Assembly: GCF_001598355.1 (NCBI RefSeq)
Contig: NZ_BCYU01000002.1
Span: 1-64,000 of the forward strand
DNA length: 64,000 nt
Reading direction: 5' to 3'
DNA from: Sphingomonas asaccharolytica NBRC 15499
GTDB lineage: Bacteria > Pseudomonadota > Alphaproteobacteria > Sphingomonadales > Sphingomonadaceae
This document shows, in pieces, positions 7,608-50,824 of the stretch (position 1 is its first letter; the number at the start of each line of letters is the position of its first letter). The notes below the pieces were generated by a model. That model worked only from the letters and a program-made list of their open reading frames with translations, ran no database searches and had not been told where the DNA came from. The translations under genes and the position numbers were made by a program.

Positions 7608-7660
7608 AGTCCGCAATTGCAGACTATTCTGCAATCCGAGACAGTCCGCAACCGCAGACT
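7608..7660. repeat. Tandem inverted-repeat operators (or integrase arm sites) beside attL
   Basis: GTCCGCAATTGCAGAC at 7609-7624 and GTCCGCAACCGCAGAC at 7644-7659 flank a degenerate copy at 7627-7642. They match the family GTCnGCAnnTGCnGAC found elsewhere in the prophage. Being next to attL, they could serve integrase or a directionality factor instead of a repressor. Confidence 0.7.
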
Positions 7661-7700
7661 TTAGCCATTTTCTGGGCTTAGCTCGGAACCGTAACGAAGT

Positions 7701-7735
7701 GGTCTCCCATCGTCCGTGGTGGGGGACCATTTTTC
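7701..7735 (+). terminator. Rho-independent terminator upstream of the phage early region
   Basis: GGTCTCCCA at 7701-7709 pairs with TGGGGGACC at 7720-7728 (9 bp, one G-U), followed by ATTTTTCG. It would stop transcription coming from the stranded tRNA promoter and so insulate the phage polymerase gene from the host. Confidence 0.75.
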
Positions 7736-7781
7736 GTTCAACCGTTCGTCGCAAAAACGTTGGATTCTCAACGAGGCAGCG

Positions 7782-7826
7782 TTGACCGAGCGCACCGCCA
7801 TGCCCATAAGGTCCGCATATGCTGAC
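7782..7826 (+). promoter_or_regulatory. Predicted early promoter of the phage RNA polymerase with overlapping operator
   Basis: TTGACC at 7782-7787 and CATAAG at 7805-7810 are separated by exactly 17 bp. Immediately after, GTCCGCATATGCTGAC at 7811-7826 matches all 12 fixed positions of the prophage's inverted-repeat consensus and would cover the transcription start. A protein bound here should block host RNA polymerase. Confidence 0.7.
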
Positions 7827-7832
7827 TGTCGG

Positions 7833-7857
7833 TTTCGTGCGACCGTTGGCACAATTG
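7833..7857 (+). promoter_or_regulatory. Candidate promoter for the phage RNA polymerase (copy 1)
   Basis: Contains GTGCGACC (7837-7844) and GCACAA (7849-7854) at the same spacing as the two near-identical elements at 10532-10556 and 32088-32112; 19 of 25 positions agree. Placed just upstream of the polymerase gene, it would give positive feedback. Confidence 0.5.
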
Positions 7858-7898
7858 CCCAGTAAGGGCCGCCATAGAGCGAGGAGGAAGGACGCCAA

Positions 7899-10496
7899 AT
7901 GGACTACACAAACGATCAGCTCAGCTTCCAGCAGTCCCTGGAGAACACTGCGGCTGAAGCCGGCGCCGAGCGCTACTGGGAGGACCAGCAGCACAAGGCG
8001 AACCGCGAAGGGTTCGAGCGCCGCGATGACGTGCAGAAGATCATCCGCGGGGCCATCCCACTGCTGTCCGCAGCGATCACGGGGTGGGTGGAGCACGCCA
8101 AGGCCCGGAAGGGACGACCCTCGGCGGCCCTTGCGCCCCTGTCGGAATTGGACGCCGACACCGTCGCATATCTCGCACTCAGCAAGACATTCAACACGGT
8201 CGCGCTCGGCAAGATGCTGTCGGCCACAGCTCTCGCGATCGGCCGGACAATCCAGGTCGAGATCGAGGCCGCGATGATCCAGGAGGCCGACCCTAAGGCA
8301 GCCCGCCGGTTCCTCAAGATGGCTGAGGGCGAGCCGCGGGAGAGCGTGAACCGCAAACGGCACGATCGCCTTAAGGAGCAGCTCGGGCTGGGTCTGACCT
8401 GGTCCCAGCGCACGGTCGCCCTGGTCGGGGGAACCGTCCTCAATCTGATCCTGACGACCCTGCCCGACATTTTCGAGCGATCGGTCCTCAACGATCACCG
8501 TGGGACCGTGCCGGTCGTGCTACTGACCGAGGCCGCCCAGGACCAGCTGGCAACGATGACCGAAGCTGCCGCCTGGCTCCATCCGATCCTCAAGCCCATG
8601 GTGGTCGAGCCCCGTCCATGGGTCCATTACGACACCGGTGCCTATCTGGACCTTCGGCTGAGCAAGACGGTGCCAATGGTCCGCACGTTCAACCGGGAGC
8701 ACCAGCACTTGATCCGGGAGGCCATCAAGGCCGGCGAGATGGCCGAGGTCCTCGACGGGCTCAACGCGATCCAGGGAACGCGCTTTGCGATCGACCAGCG
8801 CGTCCTCAACGTCATCGAATGGTGCCGTTCGGAACGCCTCCAGCCTAACAAGAGCTTCCCGCTGGCCGCCATGCCCGAGCTGCCCAAGAAGACGCCGCGC
8901 GAGGAATGGGAGGCACTGACCCCCGAGGCCCGCTCAGCGCTCAGCCGGCGCCGCAAGGCCCTCCGCGACCTGCGAGGCTCCGCGGCTGTCGACGGGGGCC
9001 TGTTCGTCTCCGACACGGCCACCGCACAGCAACTGGCCGAGCATCCCTGCTTCTACCTACCGCACAGCATGGACTTCCGCGGGAGGGTCTACGCGGTGCC
9101 GCATTTCAACCCGCAGCGCTCGGACCACATCAAAGCCATGTTCCGCTTCGCCGACACTGTTCCGCTGGGCGGCGAGGGCGGCCGGTGGCTGATGATCCAT
9201 CTGGCCAACTGCGGGGACTTCGAGAAGGTCAGCAAACGCCCGTTCGACGACCGGGTCCAGTGGGTTCGCGACAACGAGCAGGCCGTAATTGAAGCGGGCA
9301 GAGACCCCTTCGGGACCTATGATTGGTGGTCAACCGCGGACAGCCCGTTCTGCTTCCTCCAGGCCTGCATGGAATACGCTACCTGGGCGACCATCTGGAA
9401 CTACTGCCCGGACTTTCCGTCCTGCATCTCGGTCGCGCTAGATGGGAGCTGCTCGGGCCTCCAGCACTATGCGGCCATGACGCGCTCGGCCGAGGAGGGC
9501 CATCACGTCAACCTGCTGCCCCGCGATGTTCCCGGCGACATTTATCAAGTGGTTGCCGATGGCGCCCGGCCGACCCTTGAGGCCTGCGCGACCCGTGGGG
9601 ATTTGGACGCGACGACGATCTTGGCCAACGGCTTCGGCCGCGGCGAGGTGAAGCGGAACGTGATGACCTACTTCTACGGGAGCGGGAAATTTGGGATGCG
9701 CGATCAGCACATGGTCGACCTGATGCGGCCGCTGGCTGACGAAGTGGCGTTAGGCGAGCGTGTACACCACCCGTACTCGCTGCTGACTGAGCGGACCAAC
9801 AAAGAGACCGGGGAGGTCACGCTGGTCCAAGACGGCGGCTTCACGTGCGCCCAGACCCTCGCGTCCCACGTCTACGCAGCGGTCACCCGCGTGGCGCCCA
9901 AGGCCGACGAGGCCGCCACGTGGTTCCAGCAGGTCGCGGCGACGCTCGCGCATGAGAGCCTCCCCGTCGTCTGGCGGACCCCAACGGGCCTTCCGGTCAT
10001 CCAGCGGTACAGCGAGTTCACGTCGAAGCGGGTCAATATGTGGCTCTACGATCGCAAGGTCGCGGTGCCGACAGGGGACGCCAAGATCGACGAGGCGGGC
10101 AACGTACTGACCAGGATCGAATGCCTCATTCGCGAGGCGCCCACCAAGCGCATCGACAAGAAGAAGGCCCGCAGCGCCATCAGCCCGAACGTGGTTCACA
10201 GCCTCGACGCCTCGCACCTGGTCCGGACTGTAGTGATGGCGAAGCAGGAAGGGATCGAGCACTTCCAGCTCATCCACGACTCCTTCGCGACCCACGCCGG
10301 CAATACAGGTCGGTTCTTCCGCATCATCCGGGAAGCATTTGTCGACCTCTATACCGACTACTGCCCCTTCCGGGAGGTGGACCGCCATGCCCGCTCGGTC
10401 CTCAGCGAGGAAGGGCAGGCCAAGCTGCCGCCAATCCCCACCAAGGGCTCCCTGGACCTCTCCGCGGTCCTGCAGTCCGACTACGCGTTTGCTTAA
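7899..10496 (+). CDS. T7-type single-subunit DNA-directed RNA polymerase
   Basis: 865 aa, close to the 883 aa of T7 gp1. The palm and fingers motifs are intact: DFRGRVYAVPHFNPQ (T7 DxxGR region), catalytic Asp D515 in LDGSCSGLQHYAAM, K585 and Y593 in VKRNVMTYFYGS (T7 K631 and Y639), NVVHSLDASHL, and H793-D794 in LIHDSFATH (T7 D812). It ends in YAFA, like the conserved FAFA foot of T7. AGGAGGAAGG lies about 9 nt upstream of the ATG. It should transcribe the phage genes from its own short promoters. It is the first gene inside attL and is apparently controlled by the operator at 7811-7826. Confidence 0.97.
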   Translation: MDYTNDQLSFQQSLENTAAEAGAERYWEDQQHKANREGFERRDDVQKIIRGAIPLLSAAITGWVEHAKARKGRPSAALAPLSELDADTVAYLALSKTFNTVALGKMLSATALAIGRTIQVEIEAAMIQEADPKAARRFLKMAEGEPRESVNRKRHDRLKEQLGLGLTWSQRTVALVGGTVLNLILTTLPDIFERSVLNDHRGTVPVVLLTEAAQDQLATMTEAAAWLHPILKPMVVEPRPWVHYDTGAYLDLRLSKTVPMVRTFNREHQHLIREAIKAGEMAEVLDGLNAIQGTRFAIDQRVLNVIEWCRSERLQPNKSFPLAAMPELPKKTPREEWEALTPEARSALSRRRKALRDLRGSAAVDGGLFVSDTATAQQLAEHPCFYLPHSMDFRGRVYAVPHFNPQRSDHIKAMFRFADTVPLGGEGGRWLMIHLANCGDFEKVSKRPFDDRVQWVRDNEQAVIEAGRDPFGTYDWWSTADSPFCFLQACMEYATWATIWNYCPDFPSCISVALDGSCSGLQHYAAMTRSAEEGHHVNLLPRDVPGDIYQVVADGARPTLEACATRGDLDATTILANGFGRGEVKRNVMTYFYGSGKFGMRDQHMVDLMRPLADEVALGERVHHPYSLLTERTNKETGEVTLVQDGGFTCAQTLASHVYAAVTRVAPKADEAATWFQQVAATLAHESLPVVWRTPTGLPVIQRYSEFTSKRVNMWLYDRKVAVPTGDAKIDEAGNVLTRIECLIREAPTKRIDKKKARSAISPNVVHSLDASHLVRTVVMAKQEGIEHFQLIHDSFATHAGNTGRFFRIIREAFVDLYTDYCPFREVDRHARSVLSEEGQAKLPPIPTKGSLDLSAVLQSDYAFA

Positions 10497-10499
10497 AAG

Positions 10500-10532
10500 G
10501 TCTGCAACCGTGGAATATCCGCAAAAGCGGTA
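10500..10532. promoter_or_regulatory. Tandem degenerate operators after the RNA polymerase gene
   Basis: Two imperfect copies of the 16-bp inverted repeat at 10500-10515 and 10517-10532 (about 13 of 16 positions each against the best sites), 17 bp apart. They abut the candidate phage promoter at 10532-10556. Confidence 0.5.
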
Positions 10533-10556
10533 TTAGTGCGACCATATGCACAACTG
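10532..10556 (+). promoter_or_regulatory. Candidate promoter for the phage RNA polymerase (copy 2)
   Basis: Identical at 24 of 25 positions to the element at 32088-32112, 21.5 kb away; core AGTGCGACCATATGCACAAC. It is non-coding and precedes the SSB-endonuclease-lysozyme gene block. Confidence 0.65.
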
Positions 10557-10592
10557 GCTTCGGTCAGCCCTCTGCACCTCCTCACGTTCCCT

Positions 10593-10634
10593 CCGGGGGT
10601 CGGCCTTATCAAGTCGACCTCCGGTTTCTTTTTC
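10593..10634 (+). terminator. Rho-independent terminator between candidate promoter and SSB gene
   Basis: CCGGGGGTCG (10593-10602) pairs with CGACCTCCGG (10615-10624) over 10 bp with one G-U; the tail TTTCTTTTTC follows. It probably ends the host-transcribed early unit, while phage-polymerase transcripts may read through. Confidence 0.75.
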
Positions 10635-10649
10635 TCCACAATTGCGGAC
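10634..10649. promoter_or_regulatory. Operator-like inverted repeat upstream of the SSB gene
   Basis: CTCCACAATTGCGGAC keeps the full right half-site TTGCGGAC and part of the left. It lies 50 bp upstream of the SSB start. Confidence 0.45.
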
Positions 10650-10698
10650 TGTCTGTGTTTGTCAGTTACCCGCCCCCTACGGAATACCATACGCCTTT

Positions 10699-11319
10699 AT
10701 GGCAAAGACCCCCTCTATTACCGCGACGTTCGGCCCGCTGATCCTGTCGTTCCCGTGCCTCAACAAGCCCGACGAGAAGTATGACGTCTATACGGCCAAC
10801 GGCACCGAGGACCCCAACTCCGACGCGATGAAGCAGGCCAAGGCGATCCTCGCCGACGCCCTCAAGCAATTCGGTCTGGACGTTGACGCGCACCTCCCGC
10901 TGAGCCGCGAAATGGTCAAGGACCCGAACGCGCCGGCTGGCACCAAGAAGCCAAAGAAGGTCCCGACCGGCAAGCTGATCCTGAAGTCGAAGAGCCAGCG
11001 GCCGCCCGCGATCGTCGATGCCAATGCGCGTCCGATCGACCCCAAGTCGGTCCAGATCGGCGGCGGCACCAAGGCCCTCGTTCAGGGCTTCCTCAAGCCG
11101 TACGACATGAACGGCAACGAAGGCATCTCCTTCACCCTTACCGGCGTCCAGATCATCGAACTGGTCGAGCGCGGCGGGTCCAGCGCCAAGTTTGAAGCTT
11201 GGAACGGCGAGGGCGGCTACTCCTATGACGGTGACGCCCCGGCTGCCGAGCTGAATATCGGCGACGACAGCGACGGCGACGACCAGGCGCAGGACGACGG
11301 TGGCATCCTCGACATTTAA
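10699..11319 (+). CDS. Single-stranded DNA-binding protein (DUF2815 / Enc34-like, T7 gp2.5 role)
   Basis: 206 aa from the ATG at 10699 (MAKTPSITATFGPLILSFPCLNKPD); an upstream in-frame extension runs across promoter and terminator and is not believable. The body resembles the OB-fold phage SSB family, with GKLILKSKSQRPPAIVDANARPI and GGTKALVQGFLKPYDMNGNEGISFTLTGVQIIEL. The C-terminus is a long acidic tail (DDSDGDDQAQDDGG), as in gp2.5, used to recruit polymerase and helicase. It heads the replication block and overlaps the endonuclease gene. Confidence 0.75.
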   Translation: MAKTPSITATFGPLILSFPCLNKPDEKYDVYTANGTEDPNSDAMKQAKAILADALKQFGLDVDAHLPLSREMVKDPNAPAGTKKPKKVPTGKLILKSKSQRPPAIVDANARPIDPKSVQIGGGTKALVQGFLKPYDMNGNEGISFTLTGVQIIELVERGGSSAKFEAWNGEGGYSYDGDAPAAELNIGDDSDGDDQAQDDGGILDI

Positions 11320-11740
11320 GGGTCGAGTGAAGCTCCACGGCCGCTCTGGCCTCGAAGACAAGACGATGGAGGACCTCGCAGTGCGCGGGGTCCCCTATCG
11401 GTACGAGGAGGTCCGGGTTTCCTACGAGAAGCCCGCGAGCCGTCACAAATACACCCCCGATTTCATCCTGCCGAACGGCATCATCGTCGAGACCAAGGGC
11501 ATCTTCGAGGTCGCCGATCGCCAGAAGCACGAGCTGGTCAAAGCCCAGCATCCCGGCCTCGACATCCGCTTCGTATTCAGTCGCTCAAAGTCGCCGATCC
11601 GCAAAGGATCTAAAACGACCTACGCCAGCTGGTGCGCGGGCCGCGGCATCCCCTTCTCCGACAAGGTCATCCCTCAGGCCTGGATCGACGAAGCCGACAA
11701 CCCAGAGCGCCACGCCGCCATTGCGGCTGCCAGCGCCTAG
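11300..11740 (+). CDS. T7 endonuclease I-like Holliday-junction resolvase
   Basis: 146 aa, the size of T7 gp3 (149 aa), and readily alignable with it: SGLEDK, EYEEVRVSYEKPAS, YTPDFILPNGIIVETKG, and KLIP/KVIPQAWI near the end. The catalytic set E19, D54, E64 and K66 is present (T7 E20, D55, E65, K67). The enzyme resolves branched replication DNA and helps degrade host DNA. It overlaps the SSB gene by 20 nt, so the two are coupled. Confidence 0.93.
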   Translation: MASSTFKGRVKLHGRSGLEDKTMEDLAVRGVPYRYEEVRVSYEKPASRHKYTPDFILPNGIIVETKGIFEVADRQKHELVKAQHPGLDIRFVFSRSKSPIRKGSKTTYASWCAGRGIPFSDKVIPQAWIDEADNPERHAAIAAASA

Positions 11741-11757
11741 CCCACCGAAAGAGAGAA

Positions 11758-12264
11758 ATGGACGACCTGAATCGAGAGGTCCTCCGCGCGGAGCTTTCGC
11801 GCGACGAGGGCGACCGCCTAAAGCCCTACAAAGACACCGTGGGCTGTTGGTCCATCGGGACCGGCCGGAACCTTGATCGAGCGGACGGCGGCATAACCGC
11901 GGCCGAAACCGCTCTGCTCAAAATCACCCGCGCTTCGTGCCTCCAAAAAGGCATCACCGAGGCCCAGCGGGTCGTCCTACTCGACAACGACATCGACGCC
12001 GTGATGGCCGACCTGGACCGAGCGCTCCCCTGGTGGCGCAAACTCGACCCCGTTCGCCAGCGCGTGATGGTCAACCTCGGCTTTATGGGGATCGGCAATA
12101 CCCAGCGCGGGCTGCTGAGCTTCCGCAACACGCTCGCAGCGATCCAGCAAGGCCGGTGGGATGACGCCGCCAATGGCCTGCTCGCTTCCAAGTACGCCCG
12201 CCAAGTCGGCGCCCGCGCAATCCGCCTAGCGGCATTGCTCCGCAATGGCCCCCGCAAGCTCTGA
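11758..12264 (+). CDS. Phage lysozyme / endolysin (GH24, T4 lysozyme-like)
   Basis: 168 aa from the ATG at 11758, preceded by a GAGAG motif. The muramidase signature is E17 and D26 in RDEGDRLKPYKDTVGCWSIGTG, with Ser32 in place of T4 Thr26. VMVNLGFMGIGNTQRGLLSF matches the second conserved block of T4/P22 lysozymes. It hydrolyses the N-acetylmuramyl glycan bond of peptidoglycan. There is no N-terminal signal anchor, so release needs a holin; candidates are the small membrane proteins at 12678, 19105 or 50426. Confidence 0.9.
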   Translation: MDDLNREVLRAELSRDEGDRLKPYKDTVGCWSIGTGRNLDRADGGITAAETALLKITRASCLQKGITEAQRVVLLDNDIDAVMADLDRALPWWRKLDPVRQRVMVNLGFMGIGNTQRGLLSFRNTLAAIQQGRWDDAANGLLASKYARQVGARAIRLAALLRNGPRKL

Positions 12265-12274
12265 AAGGACCTTA

Positions 12275-12505
12275 ATGAAGACGACCTACCTGACCCCCCG
12301 CGCCAAAGAGGTGCTCGACTACTTGCAAGCCAAGGGACGCACCACGCCCCGCGAGGCCCTGCTGGACCTCGACATCAACAGCGGGTCATTTACGCGCCGC
12401 ATCACCGAGCTGCGGGACGCCGGCTACTCGATCGCGGTGACGACCAACCGGCACCCGATCACCCGCCGTCGCTACAACGTGTACACGTACTCGCCCCACG
12501 ACTGA
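12275..12505 (+). CDS. Small winged-helix DNA-binding protein
   Basis: 76 aa from the ATG at 12275 with AAAGGA upstream. The sequence LTPRAKEVLDYLQAKGRTTPREALLDLDINSGSFTRRITELRDAGYSI has the layout of a winged helix-turn-helix found in many phage small proteins, with a basic wing (TTNRHPITRRRYNVYTY). Its 3' end contains the perfect palindrome CGTGTACACG. Likely a minor phage regulator. Confidence 0.6.
   Translation: MKTTYLTPRAKEVLDYLQAKGRTTPREALLDLDINSGSFTRRITELRDAGYSIAVTTNRHPITRRRYNVYTYSPHD
12478..12487. repeat. Dispersed palindrome CGTGTACACG (copy in winged-helix gene)
   Basis: Perfect 10-bp palindrome, extending to 12 bp (12477-12488). Other perfect copies are at 20911-20920, 31134-31143 and 35736-35745. 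One-mismatch copies are at 9759, 16445, 19742, 28098 and 47412. Confidence 0.6.
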
Positions 12506-12678
12506 TGGCAAAAGACCCCCTCGATCCGGGGACCATTGAGCTACCGCTCGATACCCCGGAGGCCTGCAGTCATACGGCGTATCTGGAGCGAAAGCGTGGT
12601 GACGCCAACTACCCCAATTGGACCTGCATGATTTGCCGAGCCTCCGTGCCCGAGCCGCAGGTCTGGGAGAACTTCTGA
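12505..12678 (+). CDS. Small Cys-containing hypothetical protein
   Basis: 57 aa (MAKDPLDPGTIELPLDTPEACSHTAY ... WTCMICRASVPEPQVWENF). The ATG overlaps the preceding stop (TGATG) and its stop overlaps the next ATG, a typical compact phage arrangement. CSH followed by CMIC could make a small zinc-binding site. No family recognised. Confidence 0.6.
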   Translation: MAKDPLDPGTIELPLDTPEACSHTAYLERKRGDANYPNWTCMICRASVPEPQVWENF

Positions 12679-13180: not shown

Positions 13181-13187
13181 GGATCAC

Positions 13188-22649: not shown

Positions 22650-22682
22650 GTCAGAAGACTAAATTCTTTCTAGTTTGCGGAA
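22650..22682. promoter_or_regulatory. Weak tandem operator half-sites before gene 22731
   Basis: A left half-site GTCAG at 22650 and a right half-site TTTGCGGA ending at 22681 sit in two 16-bp windows exactly 17 bp apart (22650 and 22667), the spacing of the better operators. The region 22616-22730 has no gene. Weak. Confidence 0.3.
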
Positions 22683-25011: not shown

Positions 25012-25426
25012 CGAACGTGTAGGAAAATTCCTATGGTGTTTTGGAACAGGTTAACCTCGAAATTGAGCGACCCCACACCGGACCCACGCACGGCAGGGCC
25101 CCTGTTACCGGGGGGTGGAAACCTGCTTCACAGACAGGTCGGGGCTTTTAAGCCGAAGCTCTGGACATGGCGCACCGCCCCCGGATACATGATCCAGAGA
25201 TGGACACGCCGCCAAGCGTGATCCGCAGGCCCTAGAGGCCCTCAGCGTCTTCCCGCGCCAACGGGGAGCCGCCTTATGTGAAGTCCGGGTTTCCACACCC
25301 ATTGCCAGAATGCCCTATGTCGACTCGGCGATCAAGCTGGGATCGTTAAGAATTTCGCCCGATTCGGTGACGGCTCAATCGGCGCCGGCTTGCATCCTTT
25401 TGTTCCCTATGCGTTCTACTGGGGCC
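25012..25426. other. Gene-free spacer in the SOS patch
   Basis: About 415 bp. It contains the inverted repeat TAGGAA-AA-TTCCTA (25020-25033) and the second LexA box (25402-25416) at its right end. The open frames in between lack ribosome binding sites and have atypical composition. I see no RNA gene I can support. Confidence 0.4.
25402..25416. promoter_or_regulatory. LexA (SOS) box, GTTC-N7-GTTC, copy 2
   Basis: GTTC at 25402-25405 and GTTC at 25413-25416 separated by CCTATGC, 10 bp upstream of the ATG at 25427. Repressor bound here would cover the transcription start of the zinc-motif gene. Confidence 0.65.
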
Positions 25427-26431: not shown

Positions 26432-26953
26432 TTACAGGGCGAGCGTTGGTTGTCTCGCCTCCGAGCCAAGTTTATCGATTAGGAAAATATGAGCCGGCGG
26501 CGTCGCCAGCAACTCGTTTTCAGGCACCGTCCGATCGAGCCAGTCCATCACCTGGTGGCGACGGATGATCGCGCCATGCCGCTCCTGATACCGAGAAACT
26601 TCTGGATTTGCGGCAACGGTGATGATGCGAAACGAAAGCGGCCAGTCTCCCATCGCTGGCTCCCAAATGCCGGCCAAGTAGAAGAAATTGCCGTCCTCTA
26701 GGTGCACGCGGTACTGCTTGCGGTCGACCTTCATATGAAACTCGGAGGCCGGAATCAGGCAGCGAAAGCCGGGAAAACTCTTTCCTTCAGATCTAACGAA
26801 TCGATACTCAATTCCGTTGCCGAACCGCGGGTCGGAACCCCAATGCGCGTTGACCAATTCCTTTCTTCCAGGTTCGTTCGGTTTACATCGGATGATAGGC
26901 CGAAGACTGCCTTCGCGGGCGTCCGAGTCGAAGGGTGTAGCGGCGGAGTTCAC
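26432..26953 (-). CDS. SRAP (YedK/HMCES-like) family protein lacking the N-terminal Cys
   Basis: 173 aa if started at the GTG at 26953; an in-frame ATG at 27013 would place the LexA box inside the gene. SRAP blocks are visible: LVNAHWGSDPRFG, FRCLIPASEFH (active-site region), FYLAGIWEP, FRIITVAANPEVSRYQERHGAII and MDWLDRTVPENELL. SRAP enzymes crosslink abasic sites through Cys2, but no MCxxY start is found in frame, so this copy may be inactive for crosslinking or use another residue. It is divergent from a Cys2-containing paralogue at 27012. Confidence 0.7.
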   Translation of the reverse strand: MNSAATPFDSDAREGSLRPIIRCKPNEPGRKELVNAHWGSDPRFGNGIEYRFVRSEGKSFPGFRCLIPASEFHMKVDRKQYRVHLEDGNFFYLAGIWEPAMGDWPLSFRIITVAANPEVSRYQERHGAIIRRHQVMDWLDRTVPENELLATPPAHIFLIDKLGSEARQPTLAL

Positions 26954-27011: not shown

Positions 27012-27635
27012 ATGTGCAATGACTATCGCCAGGAAGTCGAGATCGCTTCGATCATGGAGGACTTCGACGACCTTGAAATAAACATCGAGACGCCGGAAGG
27101 CGTGCCCGAGGACGCGCCCCGCGCCGACATCAAAATGACTGACGTCGCGCCGATTGTGCGCACCGCAAACAGGGACCCAGGGAACCGCAGAGCGGTCGGT
27201 GAACTGGTCAATCGGCGCTGGAGCTGGCCCGGTGCGCGAGGCAAACCCGTCTACAACTTCCGCTCCGAGAGTCGCGCGTTCACGTCAGGCCGGTGCCTAA
27301 TTGTCGCGGACGGTTTCTACGAGTTCACCGATCCGCTGCCTGGGGAGAAGCGTAAGACCAAGTGGCTCTTTACGCTGAAGGATCATCCCTGGTTCTGCAT
27401 CGCGGGTATCTGGCGGGCGCACCCAGAGGTCGGCGAGGCATTCACCATGCTGACCATGGACGCGGGCGAAGACATCGCGCCCTACCATCACCGGCAGATC
27501 GTCCCGCTAGCCCCCGAGCAGTGGGCGGCCTGGCTCGATCCGACCGTGCCGGCGAAGGAGGTCCTGCGTTACCTGCCCGCCGGCAGCCTGCCCGCAGTGC
27601 GCGTATATCCGCCGGCTCAGCCAGAAGCCGCTTGA
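27012..27635 (+). CDS. SRAP (YedK/HMCES-like) abasic-site crosslinking protein
   Basis: 207 aa beginning MCNDYR, so Cys2 is exposed after Met removal, as in YedK and HMCES. The other family blocks are GELVNRRWSWPGARGKPVYNFRSES, SGRCLIVADGFYEFTD (catalytic Glu region), WFCIAGIWR, FTMLTMDAGEDIAPYHHRQIV and AAWLDPTVPAKEVL. These proteins trap abasic sites in single-stranded DNA. The LexA box 40 bp upstream supports damage induction. Confidence 0.9.
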   Translation: MCNDYRQEVEIASIMEDFDDLEINIETPEGVPEDAPRADIKMTDVAPIVRTANRDPGNRRAVGELVNRRWSWPGARGKPVYNFRSESRAFTSGRCLIVADGFYEFTDPLPGEKRKTKWLFTLKDHPWFCIAGIWRAHPEVGEAFTMLTMDAGEDIAPYHHRQIVPLAPEQWAAWLDPTVPAKEVLRYLPAGSLPAVRVYPPAQPEAA

Positions 27636-28447: not shown

Positions 28448-28696
28448 TCAGGCGCGGCTCGCTGGTGGGAGGTAGAAGCCGCCGGGGTCGGAGACGCCCG
28501 CAAGGTCCTTCGCCCGCAGCATCAGCTGCAACCAGGCGTCATCCACCGACACGTTGTTAGGCAGGGGCTGGCTCTGCACCTTTGCGGAGAACATCCGCAT
28601 TTTGGCGTAGAGCCGCTTGCGCTTGGCGGCCGGGAAACCGGGCATTGCCGTGTCCACCGCGCGACGCTCGGCCGCTATCAGCTCCTCCAGCGTCAT
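28448..28696 (-). CDS. Small basic hypothetical protein
   Basis: 82 aa (MTLEELIAAERRAVDTAMPG ... SDPGGFYLPPASRA), helical and basic. Its ATG overlaps the stop of the SprT-like gene by 4 nt, so the two are coupled. Function unknown. Confidence 0.55.
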   Translation of the reverse strand: MTLEELIAAERRAVDTAMPGFPAAKRKRLYAKMRMFSAKVQSQPLPNNVSVDDAWLQLMLRAKDLAGVSDPGGFYLPPASRA

Positions 28697-29331
28697 GATT
28701 GCACCAGCTCGCCGTCGCAGGTTGGCACGGGGCAGCTAAGGGTCTGCTGGACGCCACCCTCTAGGCCCAGATGCTTCGCCGTCACCCGAGCAGTCCAGCC
28801 GCAGCAATCGCAAGTGACCTTCAGATACCGCGTGGTCTGAGTCTTCTTGCCGCCCTCTAGCTGGGCCTGGTCGTCGAGCTGGGCACCCGGCAGCGGTCCG
28901 AGCTTCTCCAGGATCGCATCGGCCCATTCGTGCCAGCCAGGCCCCGCCACGGTCGCGGTCATCTTGCCGACGAGCCCCAGTGCCTGGGCAACCTTGCGGA
29001 ACTTGGGGCCGTGCCCCTGGCCCTTGCCGAGCGCCGCATGCACAAGCTCATGGGTTAGGACGTCGGCAACGCGGGCGCTATCGCTCTGCAGGCTGGGCCG
29101 AATGAAGACCTCTACCGCGTGGTCCTGGCTGGCCTCGCTGTACCAGCATTCCCCGATGACCTTGGACCGGTTGCCCTTGGAGGGGAAACCCACCGAGACG
29201 CGGACGCGGTCGGGCAGGGGGGCGCCTGCGGCCTCGAACTGCGGCCGGGCCAGGTCCGTGAAGGCCAGAAGCCAGCCCTCGCGGGTCGTCACTGCAGGCG
29301 CAGCGAGGGGCGGGAGAACGGGGGCGTTCAC
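28693..29331 (-). CDS. SprT-like zinc metallopeptidase
   Basis: 212 aa. The metal-binding motif HELVHAALGKGQGHGPKF gives HExxH plus a downstream His. The C-terminus carries a zinc ribbon with CDCCG and CPVPTC. SprT/SPRTN-type proteins cleave proteins bound to DNA or act on nucleic-acid complexes. In a phage operon it may clear host proteins, but no substrate can be named. Coupled with its neighbours on both sides. Confidence 0.8.
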   Translation of the reverse strand: MNAPVLPPLAAPAVTTREGWLLAFTDLARPQFEAAGAPLPDRVRVSVGFPSKGNRSKVIGECWYSEASQDHAVEVFIRPSLQSDSARVADVLTHELVHAALGKGQGHGPKFRKVAQALGLVGKMTATVAGPGWHEWADAILEKLGPLPGAQLDDQAQLEGGKKTQTTRYLKVTCDCCGWTARVTAKHLGLEGGVQQTLSCPVPTCDGELVQS

Positions 29332-30195: not shown

Positions 30196-30228
30196 TTTTC
30201 CTTCTGCGGAATGTCAGTATTTGCGGAC
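30196..30228. promoter_or_regulatory. Operator pair in the minus-strand operon
   Basis: GTCAGTATTTGCGGAC at 30213-30228 and a right half-site TGCGGA at 30205-30210, in frames 17 bp apart. Placed in the 36-bp gap before the 29328-30191 gene, where it could act as an internal operator or roadblock. Confidence 0.5.
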
Positions 30229-31059: not shown

Positions 31060-31106
31060 TGCGTCCCTCTCAGAGCCGGGAAGGTCCCGGTGACCAGATG
31101 CCGACT

Positions 31107-31176
31107 GTCAGCATCTGCGGACTATATTGCACACGTGTACACGGTCCGCAATAGCAGACTGTCAGAAAATGCAGTG
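31107..31176. promoter_or_regulatory. Operator cluster and divergent promoter region
   Basis: GTCAGCATCTGCGGAC (31107-31122) and GTCCGCAATAGCAGAC (31144-31159) are strong copies of the inverted repeat, with a weaker one at 31161-31176. A perfect CGTGTACACG palindrome (31134-31143) touches the second. TATAGT on the minus strand (31126-31121) is a possible -10 for the minus-strand operon. The first site reads almost the same as the operator at 7811-7826 in reverse (15 of 16). Confidence 0.7.
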
Positions 31177-31491: not shown

Positions 31492-32087
31492 AGGGCCTGC
31501 CGGTCCCACGGTCACACTTAACCGAATGGTTGAGTATCCCGGACCGCGACACTCCGGCCTGAATGTCTACCAGGCTCGGCAATGGCATGCCGCAATCGGC
31601 CGCAATCCCCCACAATCTTAGGCACGATGGGGGACGCGCGTGTTCCAGCATCCAGTGACAAACCGCAGATTCCTGCGGGTCTCGGCAGGGTGGGGGACGG
31701 CCGGAGTGGGGGAATAGCCCGCTTGGGTCCCTCCCGGCGACAGGACGGGAGCCCGTTCGGTTGTGGCAAATCATGGCTCGAAACTGGCGGCTTCGCTCGA
31801 CGCGCCCTGCGGCCGCTCGGACCTCAGTAACGCCGCGGTTTCCCTGGAGAATCTTGCGGGATCATGCAGCCCGGCGGGGACGATTGCGGAGCCGGAACGA
31901 CCACCCTATTATTTCTCGGGTCCCATTGGGTCCCATCCGGCCCATTCGGGACCCATATGTGTCAGCAAGGCTTCCCTATTTCCGAGGCCCGCTGCTCGAT
32001 CGCTACGGGGTCCCTTTGGGTCCCTCCTGGTCATTTGGGCTCCCGCCATAACTCACTGATACTACGCGCTTTCCAGCAGAAGACCGC

Positions 32088-32112
32088 ATTAGTGCGACCA
32101 TAAGCACAACTG
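32088..32112 (+). promoter_or_regulatory. Candidate promoter for the phage RNA polymerase (copy 3)
   Basis: AGTGCGACCATAAGCACAAC with flanks matches the element at 10532-10556 at 24 of 25 positions. It is the last such element before the virion genes and would be their main promoter. Confidence 0.65.
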
Positions 32113-32144
32113 CCAGCATCTGCGGATTGTCTGCTGATGCCGAC
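32112..32144. promoter_or_regulatory. Tandem operators directly after candidate promoter 3
   Basis: GCCAGCATCTGCGGAT (32112-32127) and GTCTGCTGATGCCGAC (32129-32144), 17 bp apart, begin at the last base of the promoter element, where a bound protein would block initiation or early elongation. Confidence 0.65.
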
Positions 32145-32158
32145 AGGTCCCTTAAAGC

Positions 32159-32214
32159 CCCTAAAGGGTCGATATAGGTAGTTCAGTAGAGTCGATATTG
32201 GAGACCCTTTAGGG
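32159..32214 (+). other. Large hairpin with internal direct repeats
   Basis: CCCTAAAGGGTC (32159-32170) pairs perfectly with GACCCTTTAGGG (32203-32214) over 12 bp. The 32-nt loop holds the direct repeats GTCGATATAGG (32168-32178) and GTCGATATTGG (32191-32201). AT content is higher than around it. There is no T-run, so it is not a standard terminator. Confidence 0.6.
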
Positions 32215-32338
32215 ACCCTAAGACTCCAAAGTCCCAACGATGCTCGCCTTGATGCGGGCCTTCCCGAAATCACCACCATAATCATCGGCGTCCGTTCCTC
32301 GGTCCGCCTATCGGCGCCTTGTGCGCCTGAGGAACCCT

Positions 32339-45343: not shown

Positions 45344-45350
45344 GGAGACC

Positions 45351-45665: not shown

Positions 45666-45679
45666 AAGTACCTACCAAC

Positions 45680-46693
45680 TTGTCTATCCCCACGGACGAC
45701 AGCAACACCAGCATGACCGAGGACGCCGCGGTTGCGGCCCTCATCGACAGCTTCGAGCCGGCCCGTAAAGGCCCAGCTGCGAAGGGTGTCGGGAAGCCCG
45801 CCCCCGAAGACGCCGACCCGGACGAAGACGCTACCGTCGACGACCAGGACGAGGGCGAGGATGAAGACGGCGCCGAAGACTCCGATAACGAGTCCGACGA
45901 TGACGACCAGGATGCCGCTGAAGACAGCCAGGACGACGAGGAAGCCGAAGACGAAGAGGACGACAAGTCCGGCGGGGCCGCTGAGGCTGCCGATGACCAA
46001 GTCGTCAAGGTGACTGTCAACGGCGAGACCCAAGAGTTCACCGTCGCGAGCCTCAAGCGTCTCGCCGGCCAAGAGGCCTCGCTGACCCGCAAGAGCCAGG
46101 AAGCCGATCTCGTCGGCGGCCGAGCTGCTGCGGCTCTCCAAGCGGCGATAGAAGCTTCGATGGAAGACCTCCAGCCGTATGCGGATGTCGACTGGCTTAC
46201 CCTCCAGAACGAAATGGACCCCGAAGAGTTCGCCTGGCACCGCAAGAATGCCGCGCGGGCCGAGGGCCGCCACCGCAAGTTGATGGAGCAGGCCCAGGGC
46301 TTCGAGCAGGTCATGCAGCAGCGCAAGCAGGCCGATACGATCCGCCGGGCCGAAGAGGCCAGCGCTGTCCTCGCGAAGGACATGCCCGGCTGGGGTGACC
46401 AGCTCTATGGCGACATCATCAAGTATGGAGCGAGCCAGGGGCTCGACGAGGCTGACGTGGCCAACATCGTCGACGCCAACGTCATCAAGCTCCTCCACAA
46501 GGCGATGCTCCACGACCGCGGCCAGCAGGCAGCGGCCAAGAAGGTCACCGCTGCCCCCACCAAGGTCATCAAGCCCGGCTCGCGCGACGAAGCGCCGGCT
46601 AAGGCGGCAACCGTGAAGAAAGCCGTGGCTCGCCTGAGCAAGACCGGCAGCGACGCGGACGCGATGGCCGTTCTGATGGGCCGCTGGGCGTAA
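45680..46693 (+). CDS. Capsid scaffolding protein candidate
   Basis: 337 aa from a TTG at 45680; the ATG at 45713 (MTEDAAVAALIDSF) is an alternative. Residues 35-105 are an almost continuous Asp/Glu run, then helices (AAALQAAIEASMEDLQPYADVDW) and a basic C-terminus ending in an Ala/Lys-rich helix. Acidic middle plus basic helical end, directly upstream of the capsid gene, is the usual scaffold layout. Confidence 0.7.
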   Translation: MSIPTDDSNTSMTEDAAVAALIDSFEPARKGPAAKGVGKPAPEDADPDEDATVDDQDEGEDEDGAEDSDNESDDDDQDAAEDSQDDEEAEDEEDDKSGGAAEAADDQVVKVTVNGETQEFTVASLKRLAGQEASLTRKSQEADLVGGRAAAALQAAIEASMEDLQPYADVDWLTLQNEMDPEEFAWHRKNAARAEGRHRKLMEQAQGFEQVMQQRKQADTIRRAEEASAVLAKDMPGWGDQLYGDIIKYGASQGLDEADVANIVDANVIKLLHKAMLHDRGQQAAAKKVTAAPTKVIKPGSRDEAPAKAATVKKAVARLSKTGSDADAMAVLMGRWA

Positions 46694-46746
46694 GCCCCGG
46701 TCCTCACCCCAACCCAACACCCACATAGAAGACCCAGAAAACACCC

Positions 46747-47649
46747 ATGGCTACTTTCAAGACCTACGACTCGGTCGGCGCCAAGGAAGACGTCAGCGAC
46801 GTCATCTCCATGCTCAACAAGCATGAAACCCCCTTCACCAGCTCGCTAAGCAGCCGCACGGTCTCGCAGAAGACCTACGAGTGGCAGGAAGACGAGCAGG
46901 AGGGCGGCCAGGACAACGCCCAGGTCGAAGGCTTCGACGCTACCGAGGAGGACTGCACGACCACCGAGATGCGGTCGAACACCACGCAGATTTTCTCGCG
47001 CACCATCAAACTGTCGGGCTCGGTCCAGGCGACCGACCACTATGGCCGCAAGGATGAGCTGGCCCGCCAGATCGTCAAGAAGGGCAAGGCCCTGAAGCTC
47101 GACCGCGAGCGTGCGTGCGTGGGCGTCGACCAGGCTTCGGTCCTCGGCTCCAACACGGTCGCCCGCCGGCATGCTTCGGTAAGCAAGCTGATCGACGCCG
47201 GAAACATCATCGCGAACGACGCTGTTGGCGCTCCGCTGAAGGAGACCACGCTCCGTACCGCGATCAAGAAGAACTATGACGAGGGCGGCAGCGCTCGTCG
47301 GTTCATGGTCGCTCCGTATGTTGCCGAGCAAACCGCCGAGTTCGCCGGCAACGCCACGCGCACTCGCCAGGTTACCGACAAGGCGGCCACCGAGATCGTG
47401 CACGTCGTGGACGTGTACACCACGGCGCTCGGCACGCTCACCGTCGAGACGAACCGCGAGATGAAGGTCGATTTCGGCCTGCTCTGGAACCCCGAGAACT
47501 GGAAGAGCGTCGTCCTCAAGGGCCGCGGCTGGTTCCGCGAGACCCTCGCCAAGACGGGCGACAACACGAAGATCATGCTGGCCGGCGAGTACGGTCTCCA
47601 GCACGACAACTTCAAGGCGTCGGTGCTCGTTACCGGCATCAGCGAGTAA
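46747..47649 (+). CDS. Major capsid protein (SU10-like, DUF5309)
   Basis: 300 aa. MATFKTYDSVGAKEDVSDVI, NKHETPFTSSLSSRTVSQKTYEWQEDE and the middle LKGRGWFRETLAKTGDN match the pattern I recall for SU10-type HK97-fold capsid proteins. This differs from T7 gp10, so head and replication modules have separate origins. A copy of CGTGTACAC lies at 47412. A terminator follows the stop. Confidence 0.8.
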   Translation: MATFKTYDSVGAKEDVSDVISMLNKHETPFTSSLSSRTVSQKTYEWQEDEQEGGQDNAQVEGFDATEEDCTTTEMRSNTTQIFSRTIKLSGSVQATDHYGRKDELARQIVKKGKALKLDRERACVGVDQASVLGSNTVARRHASVSKLIDAGNIIANDAVGAPLKETTLRTAIKKNYDEGGSARRFMVAPYVAEQTAEFAGNATRTRQVTDKAATEIVHVVDVYTTALGTLTVETNREMKVDFGLLWNPENWKSVVLKGRGWFRETLAKTGDNTKIMLAGEYGLQHDNFKASVLVTGISE

Positions 47650-47662
47650 TCGCCGATTGAGA

Positions 47663-47699
47663 CCCTCGGCCCTTAAACGGGGCCGGGGGTTTCCCTTTC
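47663..47699 (+). terminator. Rho-independent terminator after the major capsid gene
   Basis: CCCTCGGCCC (47663-47672) pairs with GGGCCGGGGG (47680-47689) over 10 bp with one G-U, followed by TTTCCCTTT. It would make the capsid message the most abundant end product of the virion transcript. Confidence 0.75.
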
Positions 47700-47716
47700 C
47701 TCTAACCGAACACCGA

Positions 47717-48082
47717 ATGACCACACCGTTTCGCTTCATCACCGCAGATGAAGACTTCGTACCCGATACTGTCGACGATGATTTCCGGATGACCGGTACG
47801 ATCGTGTCGACCCAGAACATCCCGCAGAGCTTCTTGGACAAGGTCGCCAGTAAGCGTGACCTCCAGGACAAGCAGACCTTCTCGCAGCTCACGCGCGGCG
47901 ACGAGATCGAGAAAATCCATCTCGCCCGTATCCCGGTCGCGGTAGTCAGCAAGTGGCATCGCGAGGGGTTCGACCTGTTCCATCTGATCGACTCCGGCGA
48001 TCCCAACGCCAGCGCCATCATCCTCGCCAAGCTCCGAGCTGACGACATGGCGGCCTTCCAGACCACCTCAAAGAATTTCTGA
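47717..48082 (+). CDS. Hypothetical virion protein
   Basis: 121 aa from the ATG at 47717. MTTPFRFITADEDFVPDTVDDDFRMTGTIV then LARIPVAVVSKWHREGFDLF. It lies between the capsid and adaptor genes and is probably a minor structural or head-completion protein. No family recognised. Confidence 0.55.
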   Translation: MTTPFRFITADEDFVPDTVDDDFRMTGTIVSTQNIPQSFLDKVASKRDLQDKQTFSQLTRGDEIEKIHLARIPVAVVSKWHREGFDLFHLIDSGDPNASAIILAKLRADDMAAFQTTSKNF

Positions 48083-48086
48083 TCCA

Positions 48087-48698
48087 ATGAGCTTCGGCAA
48101 ACTCAAACGAGCGCTTCAGAGCCTCATCAACCGCAAAGACCTGACGGACGACCTTGCCGGAGACTTCATCAACCGCGCCGTCGACGAGATCGAGCGTCAG
48201 CTCCGCATCGGCCCCATGGAGGCCCTTCTCGAAGCTTCGAGCTGGGACGGCACAGCCAACAGCATCACGATCCCGCCCAACTACCTGCAGCTGATCGACA
48301 TATTCACGGACGGCGGGACCCTGCGGCTGGTCGACAAGGACGCGTTCTTCTGCGCCTCCACCACAGGCCGGCCCCTTGTCTTCATGAAGACCGGCGCGAG
48401 CTGGCTGGTGAAGCCCAAGCCGGCCGCGGGAACGACCGTATTCGTCCAATATTACGCTGAGAGCCCGCCGCTCCAGGTCGACACCGATGAAAACGTCTGG
48501 ACCAAAGCGTGCTTCAGCGCCGTCCTCTACACCGCAGCCTCCCTCGCTGCTGATCACTTCCAGATGGAGGACCAGTACGTCCAGCGCTTCGACGGCAAGG
48601 CTCAGGCCTTGGTGACGGCGATCGACGGCCAAAACTGGGACGAGAAGTGGAACGTGCCGCTCGCGATTGGCGCCCCCAAAGACATCGGAGAGTATTGA
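48087..48698 (+). CDS. Head-tail adaptor protein
   Basis: 203 aa. LTDDLAGDFINRAVDEIERQLRIGPMEALLEA, ITIPPNYLQLIDIFTDGG and a late helical AVLYTAASLAADHFQMEDQY match the pattern of podoviral adaptor / tail-tube A-type proteins. It should bind the portal ring and receive the tail. The start lies 4 bp after the previous stop. Confidence 0.7.
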   Translation: MSFGKLKRALQSLINRKDLTDDLAGDFINRAVDEIERQLRIGPMEALLEASSWDGTANSITIPPNYLQLIDIFTDGGTLRLVDKDAFFCASTTGRPLVFMKTGASWLVKPKPAAGTTVFVQYYAESPPLQVDTDENVWTKACFSAVLYTAASLAADHFQMEDQYVQRFDGKAQALVTAIDGQNWDEKWNVPLAIGAPKDIGEY

Positions 48699-48700
48699 CC

Positions 48701-49264
48701 ATGGGCGACTTCACCAGCGCCTCCTTCTACGGCCAGAGCCAGCAGGACCTGCGCGGACCCAAAGGCGACCAAGGCGACAAGGGCGACCAGGGAGACCTGG
48801 GCCCCCGCGGCGAACAGGGCCTCGACGCCTACCAAGTGTGGCTCTCGCTGGGCCATAGCGGCACCGAAGCGGAGTTCATCTCGTCCCTTACCGGCCCATC
48901 CGGCCGTGACGGGAAGGATAGCGCGTACCGCTATGGCTCGTTTGCCGTCGTCGGCATCCAACCAGGCGAGATTCTCCTCGATCATGACGTGATCGAAGCC
49001 CACACGCTCGGGGCTGACTTCGTCGGGTCAAGAGTTTCCTGTGACCTCCCACCGGACGACGACTGGATCGCTAAGGTCCTGAAGAACGACGTCCAGATCG
49101 GGACGATTACGGTTTCGGCTCCGGACGGTTTCGTCACGCTCGCCACCGCGGGACATGCCCCTGTGGCGGTAGCTGTCGGCGACGTTGTTTCGGTTGCCGC
49201 CCCGGATATCCCGGACGCCTCGATTGGCCGCGTCCGCTTCACTTTCTTTGGAACACTCCCGTAA
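48701..49264 (+). CDS. Second collagen-like fibre or spike protein
   Basis: 187 aa from the ATG at 48701. A short N-terminus leads to about 30 residues of Gly-X-Y triplets (GPKGDQGDKGDQGDLGPRG), the motif LDAYQVWLSLGHSGTEAEFISSLTG found in many fibre shafts, another short triplet run, then a beta-rich end. The triplets differ in codon use from those at 34980-35115, so the two fibres are not recent copies. Confidence 0.7.
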   Translation: MGDFTSASFYGQSQQDLRGPKGDQGDKGDQGDLGPRGEQGLDAYQVWLSLGHSGTEAEFISSLTGPSGRDGKDSAYRYGSFAVVGIQPGEILLDHDVIEAHTLGADFVGSRVSCDLPPDDDWIAKVLKNDVQIGTITVSAPDGFVTLATAGHAPVAVAVGDVVSVAAPDIPDASIGRVRFTFFGTLP

Positions 49265-50214
49265 TGCCCACTTATTTCGCCGGGTCCACGTTGGACGCGT
49301 TTGTGCCCTCCCTGACGAACTGCACGGACGACGCCTCCGTTGTCTATGTGAGCCCCGGCGGCTTTGCAGACGCATACGTTACTGATCCCGCAGACGGCAT
49401 TAGGAAGGGAGTTTCGAGGCTCTGGAGCCACGCTCACTCCGTATCTGGTGCATTTGCTGCCGCCCCGGTGCTTTACTCCTGGTTCAATCAGAGCGGCGTG
49501 GAGGTGGTACGGTTTGCCAGCGTCGCCGGAGGCTATCAGCTCCAATATTTCAACGCCGGCTCATGGGTTGGCGTTGGGGAACCGATGGGCGGCGGTTCAG
49601 GCACATACGACTTTCTTATCTACATCCACCCCACTGCCGGGAGGCTCGCGTGGTTCTTTAACCAAAACCTCGCTGTTGATGTACGCGCCCTAGACACTTC
49701 GCCCATCGGTAACGTGGCAAGGATGCGCCTAGGAATCCTGCAAGGATACGTCGGCAACACGGCCCACAGCGGCGTGCTCCTGGCGTCATACAACACAATC
49801 GGGCACACGGTCCGACGCCGTGCCCCCACCGCTAACGGGACCCGCATGACATGGTCTGGAAGCTACGCGGACGTTGACGACGCCGCGACGGACGATAGCG
49901 ACGCCATCTCTGCATCAAACGTCGGGGACGTGGCGACCTTCACCGGACCAGTGTTCACTCCCACCAGCGCCGGCAATGTCATCAAAGCTGTTGGCGTGGC
50001 CGCCCGCATCCGTAACGACGGCGATGTCATTCCGACCAACGCCAAGGTGTTGTTGTCGGTAGGCGGGGAGGATCAGTTAGCCCCCACAAACATGCCGATC
50101 ACTGCAGGATTTCAAGGCTCCGTCGCGATGTTCGATAAGGACCCAGGAACCGGCCTCCCGTGGTCCGATATTTCGCGGGTCAACGGCGAGTTCGGGCTCG
50201 TTGCTACGGAATAG
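49264..50214 (+). CDS. Structural beta-rich protein, likely fibre or spike
   Basis: 316 aa whose ATG overlaps the stop of the upstream fibre gene (TAATG). Mostly beta by pattern (YSWFNQSGVEVVRFASVAGGYQ, MTWSGSYADVDDAATDDSDAI). Probably extends or decorates the fibre made by the previous gene. No family recognised. Confidence 0.55.
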   Translation: MPTYFAGSTLDAFVPSLTNCTDDASVVYVSPGGFADAYVTDPADGIRKGVSRLWSHAHSVSGAFAAAPVLYSWFNQSGVEVVRFASVAGGYQLQYFNAGSWVGVGEPMGGGSGTYDFLIYIHPTAGRLAWFFNQNLAVDVRALDTSPIGNVARMRLGILQGYVGNTAHSGVLLASYNTIGHTVRRRAPTANGTRMTWSGSYADVDDAATDDSDAISASNVGDVATFTGPVFTPTSAGNVIKAVGVAARIRNDGDVIPTNAKVLLSVGGEDQLAPTNMPITAGFQGSVAMFDKDPGTGLPWSDISRVNGEFGLVATE

Positions 50215-50220
50215 CCCAGC

Positions 50221-50421
50221 GTGACCACATACGTTGCGAAAGCCGGGGAGTACCTCGTCGAAGGCGCCCCCGGCGTCACCGTGGTTTCCAAACTGGGCCA
50301 CTACATCGTCGAGGGCACCGAGAAGCGCGTCATTGCCAGCAAATTGGCACAGTACGTCGTGGAGGGCCCGCCGATTATCATTCCCGCGGCCCCGCGGCGC
50401 CGACAACTCACAATGACCTAG
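50221..50421 (+). CDS. Small protein with three short repeats
   Basis: 66 aa from a GTG at 50221. Three units of about 16 residues: VAKAGEYLVEG, VVSKLGHYIVEG and IASKLAQYVVEG, each with the pattern K-x-x-x-Y-x-V-E-G. This suggests a small beta-solenoid or a repeated strand-turn-strand. It sits between fibre genes and a membrane coiled-coil gene. Function unknown. Confidence 0.5.
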   Translation: MTTYVAKAGEYLVEGAPGVTVVSKLGHYIVEGTEKRVIASKLAQYVVEGPPIIIPAAPRRRQLTMT

Positions 50422-50425
50422 GTTC

Positions 50426-50713
50426 ATGGACACCAACAACAGCAACACCGGACTCATCCTGGACCTGCGCGACCGCATGGCACGGATTGAGACCAAACTA
50501 GACGCCCACCACGATGCCCATACGGTCATCGACAAGCGCTTGGACAAGGTTGAGGCCGCCGTATCGGACCTCGACGACCGAATCACCGCGAATCGCAGCG
50601 ACATTGACGCAGGTAAGGCGAAAGTCGCCACCCTGGGCGCAGTGGGCGGCGGCGTAATCGCGGTCGCAACGATGCTCGGCGACCACCTTTGGTCGCTCTT
50701 TAGGCTCCACTAA
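50426..50713 (+). CDS. Coiled-coil membrane protein (XhlA-like, holin-associated candidate)
   Basis: 95 aa. Residues 10-65 form a coiled coil (DLRDRMARIETKLDAHHDAH, KRLDKVEAAVSDLDDRI), followed by one transmembrane helix (VATLGAVGGGVIAVATML). XhlA-type proteins have this order and cooperate with holins. It is the last gene of the late block, which fits lysis timing. Confidence 0.6.
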   Translation: MDTNNSNTGLILDLRDRMARIETKLDAHHDAHTVIDKRLDKVEAAVSDLDDRITANRSDIDAGKAKVATLGAVGGGVIAVATMLGDHLWSLFRLH

Positions 50714-50722
50714 ACACTTCGG

Positions 50723-50749
50723 ACCCTCCCTCGCGGAGGGTTCTTTTTT
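50723..50749 (+). terminator. Rho-independent terminator closing the late block
   Basis: ACCCTCC (50723-50729) pairs with GGAGGGT (50735-50741), 5-nt loop, followed by TCTTTTTT. It isolates the repressor-integrase pair from late transcription. Confidence 0.9.
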
Positions 50750-50791
50750 CGTTACACTTGCATTTCTAGAACATTTCGGTAACGGGGAACT

Positions 50792-50824
50792 GTCCGCTAT
50801 TGCGGACGTTACCTAATTGCAGAC
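50792..50824. promoter_or_regulatory. Operator pair in the leader of the MarR-type gene
   Basis: GTCCGCTATTGCGGAC (50792-50807) has two perfect 6-bp arms. The next window (50809-50824) keeps the right half-site TTGCAGAC at 17-bp spacing. The pair ends 27 bp before the start codon, suggesting autoregulation. Confidence 0.7.

Follow-up and report, generated by a model that had tools for sequence, protein, structure and literature searches.

A T7-like prophage in a tRNA-Leu gene

The window (the whole stretch of 64,000 nucleotides that was analysed) contains a T7-like prophage of ~45 kb, integrated in a tRNA-Leu gene and bounded by two att cores (Table 1). Besides a single-subunit RNA polymerase, it encodes proteins for replication (a gp2.5-like protein, a primase-helicase, a DNA polymerase, and an exonuclease) as well as structural tail, head, and ejection proteins. 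At its right end, a marR gene is directly followed by the gene of a tyrosine integrase. Gene calls come from our own simple coding-potential script, not from a standard gene finder. The prophage further carries a SprT-like protein (28693-29331, minus strand), two reading frames with an SRAP domain (SOS response associated peptidase; 27012-27635, plus strand, and 26432-26734, minus strand), and, according to ARAGORN, a tRNA-Pyl (cta) at 25172-25266 on the minus strand, which may be a false positive or resemble an amber suppressor gene.

Table 1. Positions of genes and candidate control elements in the window ("operator" stands for a candidate operator site)
Feature	Position	Strand	Remarks
attL core	7566-7604	+	39 bp, same sequence as 52387-52425; 5' part of tRNA-Leu
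Triple operator array beside attL: 7609, 7627 (weak), 7644	7609-7659	.	Same layout in G399 and G400
Terminator-like hairpin between attL array and polymerase promoter	7690-7742	+	Fold -27.8 kcal/mol, z -6.4
Sigma70-like boxes TTGACC-N17-CATAAG, polymerase gene	7782-7810	+	Chosen by eye, weak; not listed by the strict scan
Operator directly after -10 box	7811-7826	.	Exact copy of GTCnGCAnnTGCnGAC
Degenerate copy of 23-bp phage-promoter candidate	7833-7855	+	
T7-like single-subunit RNA polymerase gene	7899-10496	+	phrog_414, E 4.7e-196; PF00940, E 6.2e-89
Tandem operators 10500 + 10517	10500-10532	.	Directly upstream of phage-promoter candidate 2
Phage-promoter candidate 2	10532-10554	+	
Terminator-like hairpin and T-run before operator 10634	10582-10633	+	Fold -23.1 kcal/mol, z -4.3
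Operator 10634	10634-10649	.	Directly after T-run, before gp2.5-like gene; 2 mismatches
Operator between two leftward genes	30213-30228	.	1 mismatch
Operator cluster 31090 (weak), 31107, 31144, 31161 (weak)	31090-31176	.	Between leftward operon and rightward gene
Phage-promoter candidate 3	32088-32110	+	Before structural genes
Tandem operators 32112 + 32129	32112-32144	.	First starts 24 bp after start of candidate 3
Intrinsic terminator before marR promoter	50721-50743	+	
GGAAC-N16-CGTT, EcfG-type (general stress) promoter candidate of marR-integrase	50786-50810	+	
Operator 50792 in spacer of EcfG-type candidate, weaker partner 50809	50792-50824	.	1 mismatch
MarR-fold regulator, 116 aa, proposed repressor	50851-51201	+	phrog_9665, E 2.3e-22; PF01047, E 6.2e-05
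Tyrosine integrase	51203-52363	+	PF00589, E 1.3e-18
attR core	52387-52425	+	Start of intact tRNA-Leu (tag)

A palindromic motif enriched in the prophage

The original prediction described a family of operators dispersed over this prophage, and the enrichment of the motif, its intergenic placement, and its conservation in relatives support that description. The candidate operator is a 16-bp palindrome, GTCnGCAnnTGCnGAC, with about fifteen copies in the prophage. All ten main copies that had been predicted are present: three are exact (7609, 7811, and 31107), five have one mismatch (7644, 30213, 31144, 32129, and 50792), and two have two (10634 and 32112); the copy at 7811, read in reverse, does agree with that at 31107 at 15 of 16 positions. 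Among the weaker partners proposed, those at 7627, 10500, 10517, 31161, and 50809, together with a further one at 31090, reach matrix scores of 4.4 to 10.6, whereas the supposed pair at 22650/22667 scores below zero (-9.4 and -2.6) and was rejected.

With up to two mismatches allowed, the window holds 14 matches against 4.85 expected, a number attained in none of 100 shuffles. Exact GTCnGCAnnTGCnGAC occurs three times in the 4.6-Mb host genome, always inside the prophage, and at up to one mismatch the whole genome has 28 copies, eight in the prophage and 20 elsewhere, a density difference of ~40-fold. A weight matrix derived from the window found 10 sites scoring >14 in the prophage versus one in 416 kb of host-side DNA, a comparison biased by training on those same ten sites. 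A matrix trained on eight sites of the related phage G400 offers a less biased test: 11 listed window sites take the top ranks, all of them intergenic (intergenic DNA being 13.9% of the sequence), and the best 20 window matches comprise 13 intergenic ones and seven within genes. At a score >12, this matrix detects 12 sites in the prophage versus a mean of 1.09 and a maximum of seven in 300 codon-preserving shuffles, and 10 in the 416 kb of host-side DNA. The motif is thus enriched in the prophage over both host and shuffled sequence. Codon-periodic palindromes dominated a search that covered whole prophages, genes included, and the search was repeated on intergenic DNA alone. In this unprompted scan of 4096 half-sites with four spacers, the GTCnGCAnnTGCnGAC motif ranks first in the prophage (11 versus 0.38 expected); it is among the top four in G400 and not among the seven listed in G399.

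Other sequence patterns were recorded along the way. LexA-type GTTC-N7-GTTC has three matches against 1.87 expected, none coinciding with a candidate operator. In some relatives, palindromes of the CTTAAG/CCTAAG type are likewise among the high-ranking ones of the intergenic DNA. A second palindrome, CGCAGATTyCTGCGG, lies at 31664-31678 and at 52272-52286, the latter near attR, and these are the only exact matches to CGCAGANNNCTGCGG in the window.

The predicted start-to-start spacing of 17 bp between tandem partners was confirmed in the window, G400, and G399. Around 26 sites of these three phages, 12 of the 52 neighbours at ±17 bp score >4, which corresponds to 11 different pairs (five in the window, one in G400, and five in G399), and every other single offset from 10 to 60 yields at most two of 26; the matrices had been trained on the tested sites, one pair included. 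As the sites are 16 bp long, tandem copies pack with one base between them, a spacing from which we infer that they may be bound cooperatively.

Sites in transcription control gaps

The array at attL begins 4 bp after the att core in the window and in G399, and 6 bp after it in G400. Considering that in the lysogen the upstream portion of the tRNA gene is oriented towards the prophage interior, 0.3 kb from the polymerase gene, a roadblock combined with a terminator at this position would make sense; alternatively, the array may hinder excision. Together, the array and the site at 7811 flank the putative promoter of the polymerase gene (boxes chosen by eye), both preceding the gene. Judged by eye, the leaders of five phages (window, G400, G399, G017a, and G407) have boxes 16 or 17 bp apart followed by an operator, and no clear layout of this kind was seen in those of G003, G244, L074 (G409), and L076 (G413). 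This comparison left out G398, G406, and G408, of which the last two have records that start with the polymerase gene.

The gap downstream of the polymerase gene contains both tandem operators and a single one behind a terminator-like hairpin. A T-run followed by a 10634-type operator is present in six aligned phages, selected because the layout was seen there (only the hairpin of the window was folded), and is lacking in that form in G017a and G003.

A 23-bp element, ATTAGTGCGACCATAnGCACAAC, occurs at 10532 and 32088, with a degenerate copy at 7833. Its 13-base core is exact only at these three places in the window, and at up to three mismatches it is no more frequent there than by chance (8 versus 8.69 expected). 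The versions in relatives, all on the rightward strand, are near-identical between copies within one phage and different between phages, with two copies each in G399, G400, G017a, G406, and G408, one each in the fragments G398 and G407, and at most one for shuffled queries; for the version of the window, nothing convincing was found in G003, G017b, and G244. Likeness within a phage and divergence between phages is how promoters of single-subunit phage polymerases behave, and for this reason we call these elements phage-promoter candidates. Operators abut all three of them in the window or lie within 7 bp. At exactly +24 of the presumed late copy, an operator-like sequence exists in all seven phages where that copy was found, three of these calls having been made by the window matrix (score >8) and four by eye. 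Repeated CCCTTTAGGGACCC-like inverted repeats are also visible before the late genes (32145-32300).

Of the remaining sites of the central region, one separates two leftward genes and a cluster lies in the divergent gap between the leftward operon and a rightward gene. Between the operators of this gap lies a short element, CGTGTACAC (31130-31142), which recurs in the corresponding gaps of G398, G399, and G400.

The original prediction placed most sites outside genes and beside promoters. The first part holds, as the top sites are intergenic; the second does not follow from strict sigma70 scans, which gave no promoter in three site regions, and the putative promoters that we place beside sites were recognised by comparing relatives.

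Conservation and drift in related phages

Relatives of the MarR protein are found in G398 (63% identity), G399 (56%), and G400 (53%), and in more distant phages; in L004/G397 the regulator gene is identical to that of the window, so that this may be the same genome. The relatives include Sphingomonas and Novosphingobium, and G003 belongs to the same family as the host. A polymerase is also encoded in seven of seven records of a first set and in 11 of 13 of a second, although the sets overlap and several records are fragments; G401, G403, and G404 appear to repeat G400, G003, and G017, since they gave the same scores. Among the 10 same-genus genomes of the sample listed, none has the regulator protein.

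In G400, the window matrix finds seven sites with a score >13 (mean 0.17, maximum two in 300 codon-preserving shuffles) and 10 with a score >10 (shuffle maximum five). The signal is weaker in G399: the four sites scoring >13 stand out more clearly against codon shuffles (mean 0.32, maximum two) than against the reversed sequence (two), and only at this threshold, the seven scoring >10 equalling the shuffle maximum of seven, hence not significant, with six in the reversed sequence. All sites scoring >12 are intergenic in both phages (seven of seven in G400 and six of six in G399). They lie in gaps that also hold sites in the window, namely in the attL array, the polymerase leader, the gap between the polymerase and ssDNA-binding-protein genes, and the divergent gap, as well as, in G400, in the gap before the late genes and, in G399, in that before marR. 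Conserved copies at the same places, as expected for a genuine family, thus exist in the closest relatives, with lesser support from G399, where the ends of the operator consensus drift to TTC/GAA. Such drift at fixed positions suggests the existence of immunity groups.

The window matrix gives no excess over reversed sequence in G003, G017a, G017b, and G244. By eye, the gaps of these four contain related but different palindromes, which were not counted as matches. A stretch of G017 (L038-L042; G017:C1:668001-763500) holds a pair of T7-like polymerase genes (57% and 42% identity with that of the window) and a pair of MarR relatives, the distances within the pairs being ~41 and ~50 kb; this looks like a tandem of two prophages of this type.

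A MarR-fold protein as the probable repressor

The product of the marR gene scores 23.2 bits against PF01047, just under the cut-off of 24.6. Its structure model (mean pLDDT 92.1) has MarR and FabT as top Foldseek matches and DNA-bound MepR as top VIA-align match (Z 12.6, rmsd 2.8 over 105 residues). Most MarR proteins are longer than this one, and the best structural matches end near residue 110 of about 140. The stretch of its recognition helix is common to the window and G400, which have the same operator consensus, and different in G399, whose operators drift; this correlation comes from three phages, too few for proof. The predicted MarR fold, the site before marR, and the agreement between helix and operator back the protein as the candidate binder that the original prediction had named. 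We consider the motif family to be a genuine network of operators, whose most likely binder is a phage repressor of the MarR fold, and, judging from sequence and structure model, it is highly probable that the sites are operators of the prophage's own lysogeny repressor encoded at 50851-51201.

Several genes near the sites lack a recognised domain, and another phage or host protein, for instance from the unannotated leftward operon, might bind the sites while the MarR protein acts elsewhere. This seems unlikely to us, given that no DNA-binding regulator was recognised among 10 further window proteins scanned, that one site falls within the putative marR promoter, and that recognition helix and operator are correlated across three phages. 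Scarcely more credit is due to the idea that the attL copies are arm-type integrase sites or excision-factor sites whose likeness to the other copies would come from a shared use or from coincidence: their position in three phages, where the first copy lies 4 to 6 bp from the att core, would fit it, but the same motif occurs at promoters many kilobases from att, and no match near attR figures among the window matches listed.

Tandem repeats at fixed spacing are typical of iterons, and the sites could also be read as replication iterons or packaging signals. This is highly improbable, since the sites are split over at least six clusters that all lie in transcription control gaps and keep constant distances to promoter candidates. 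Even less can be said for a chance or codon-bias pattern in a G+C-rich genome, a practically negligible explanation: other palindromes do exceed simple expectation once genes are included, but the codon-preserving shuffles, the intergenic-only scan, and the cross-phage prediction all argue against it. Chance is refuted for the family as a whole, whereas single weak members may be due to it.

An EcfG-type promoter candidate before marR and the integrase gene

The sequence GGAAC-N16-CGTT precedes marR in exact form in the window, G398, G399, and G400. Variants are found at this place in G407 and G408 (GGAAC-N16-GGTT) and, in a looser form, in G406 (N17-AGTT), and the flanks and spacer of the motif differ between phages. 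It is lacking in nine further marR upstream regions, of which those of L065 and L066 look alike; some of the stretches scanned were short because the match began inside the gene. One copy in 64 kb (0.61 expected; 52 of 100 shuffles have one) is at chance level, so that place and conservation alone make the case for EcfG. Ten phage segments contain seven copies, four before marR and three elsewhere. The host genome, which encodes NepR and PhyR, has 18 copies, fewer than of the backward control (75); none is present in the 3 kb around phyR-nepR, and one lies ~1.6 kb from nepR (C13:62826).

EcfG promoters of sphingomonads offer the parallel: in one study, GGAAC-N16-CGTT is the conventional general-stress promoter of Sphingopyxis granuli and GGTT is among the natural -10 boxes (PMC7083833), and GGAAC-N17-20-GTT is given for Sphingomonas melonis in another (PMC6599016). 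Whereas the EcfG promoters described in that Sphingopyxis study drive host stress genes, the prophage copy precedes a lysogeny operon and has a putative repressor site in its spacer. With operator 50792 in this spacer, repressor and sigma factor would be in direct competition. A search for EcfG in connection with prophages, lysogens, and the general stress response found no paper in the literature covered.

Proposed control of lysogeny

In the mechanism that we propose, a repressor dimer would bind the 16-bp palindromes, often as neighbouring pairs whose starts are 17 bp apart. Sitting directly after the -10 box of the presumed host-type promoter of the polymerase gene, it would let little polymerase be made; placed against each of the three promoters presumably used by that enzyme, it would prevent leaked polymerase from starting the middle or late genes. 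It would also cover the divergent control region of the leftward operon and limit its own operon from within the promoter spacer. At attL, the triple array and the terminator may stop transcription from the tRNA-Leu promoter or from marR-int before it enters the polymerase gene, and/or hinder excision.

On a more tentative level, with a little less than an even chance of being right, sphingomonad T7-like prophages may wire the operon of repressor and integrase to the host EcfG, the repressor's operator filling the 16-bp spacer, while the same repressor double-locks the lytic programme (at the host promoter of the polymerase gene and at every promoter that the polymerase uses) and insulates attL. 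Under host stress, lysogeny would then be favoured through synthesis of repressor and integrase, within the limits set by negative feedback.

Comparison with known systems and significance

In the Streptomyces phage phiC31, conserved inverted repeats dispersed between genes are bound by the c repressor. The prophage sites resemble these as palindromes located between genes and probably bound by a phage repressor, although repressor and phage type are unrelated. The nearest analogy drawn originally was to the stoperators of mycobacteriophage L5; those of L5 and cluster A likewise comprise many repressor sites spread over a prophage with specificities differing between relatives. This analogy stands in part: the attL array and 10634 are placed like roadblocks, but most sites abut promoters and resemble ordinary operators. 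Stoperators lack symmetry, and the repressor that binds them is a monomer (PMC9283540); the prophage sites are palindromes, mostly abutting promoter candidates, with a MarR-fold protein as the proposed binder.

The temperate T7-like phages of the LUZ100 type also have an integrase beside a MarR-type regulator and sites flanking the polymerase promoter, and the excerpt describing them carries the hypothesis that MarR represses the T7-like polymerase via sites flanking its promoter (PMC10134795, citing Boeckman 2022). The core idea of MarR control of the polymerase promoter is therefore not new. In contrast with the LUZ100 type as described in that excerpt, the sites are also situated at the three phage-promoter candidates, in the leftward operon, at attL, and in the EcfG-type promoter candidate of the regulator. 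What goes beyond the excerpt is the genome-wide map with its fixed geometry, the drift of the operators, the placement at attL, and the EcfG-type promoter candidate of marR-int with an operator as spacer.

These observations bear on the question of what silences the polymerase in lysogens of T7-type phages, a group supposed to be strictly lytic; here the conserved operator map predicts a two-level lock, on the polymerase gene and on the promoters that the polymerase uses. The EcfG-type promoter, if it proves true, would tie the decision between lysis and lysogeny to the stress of the host.
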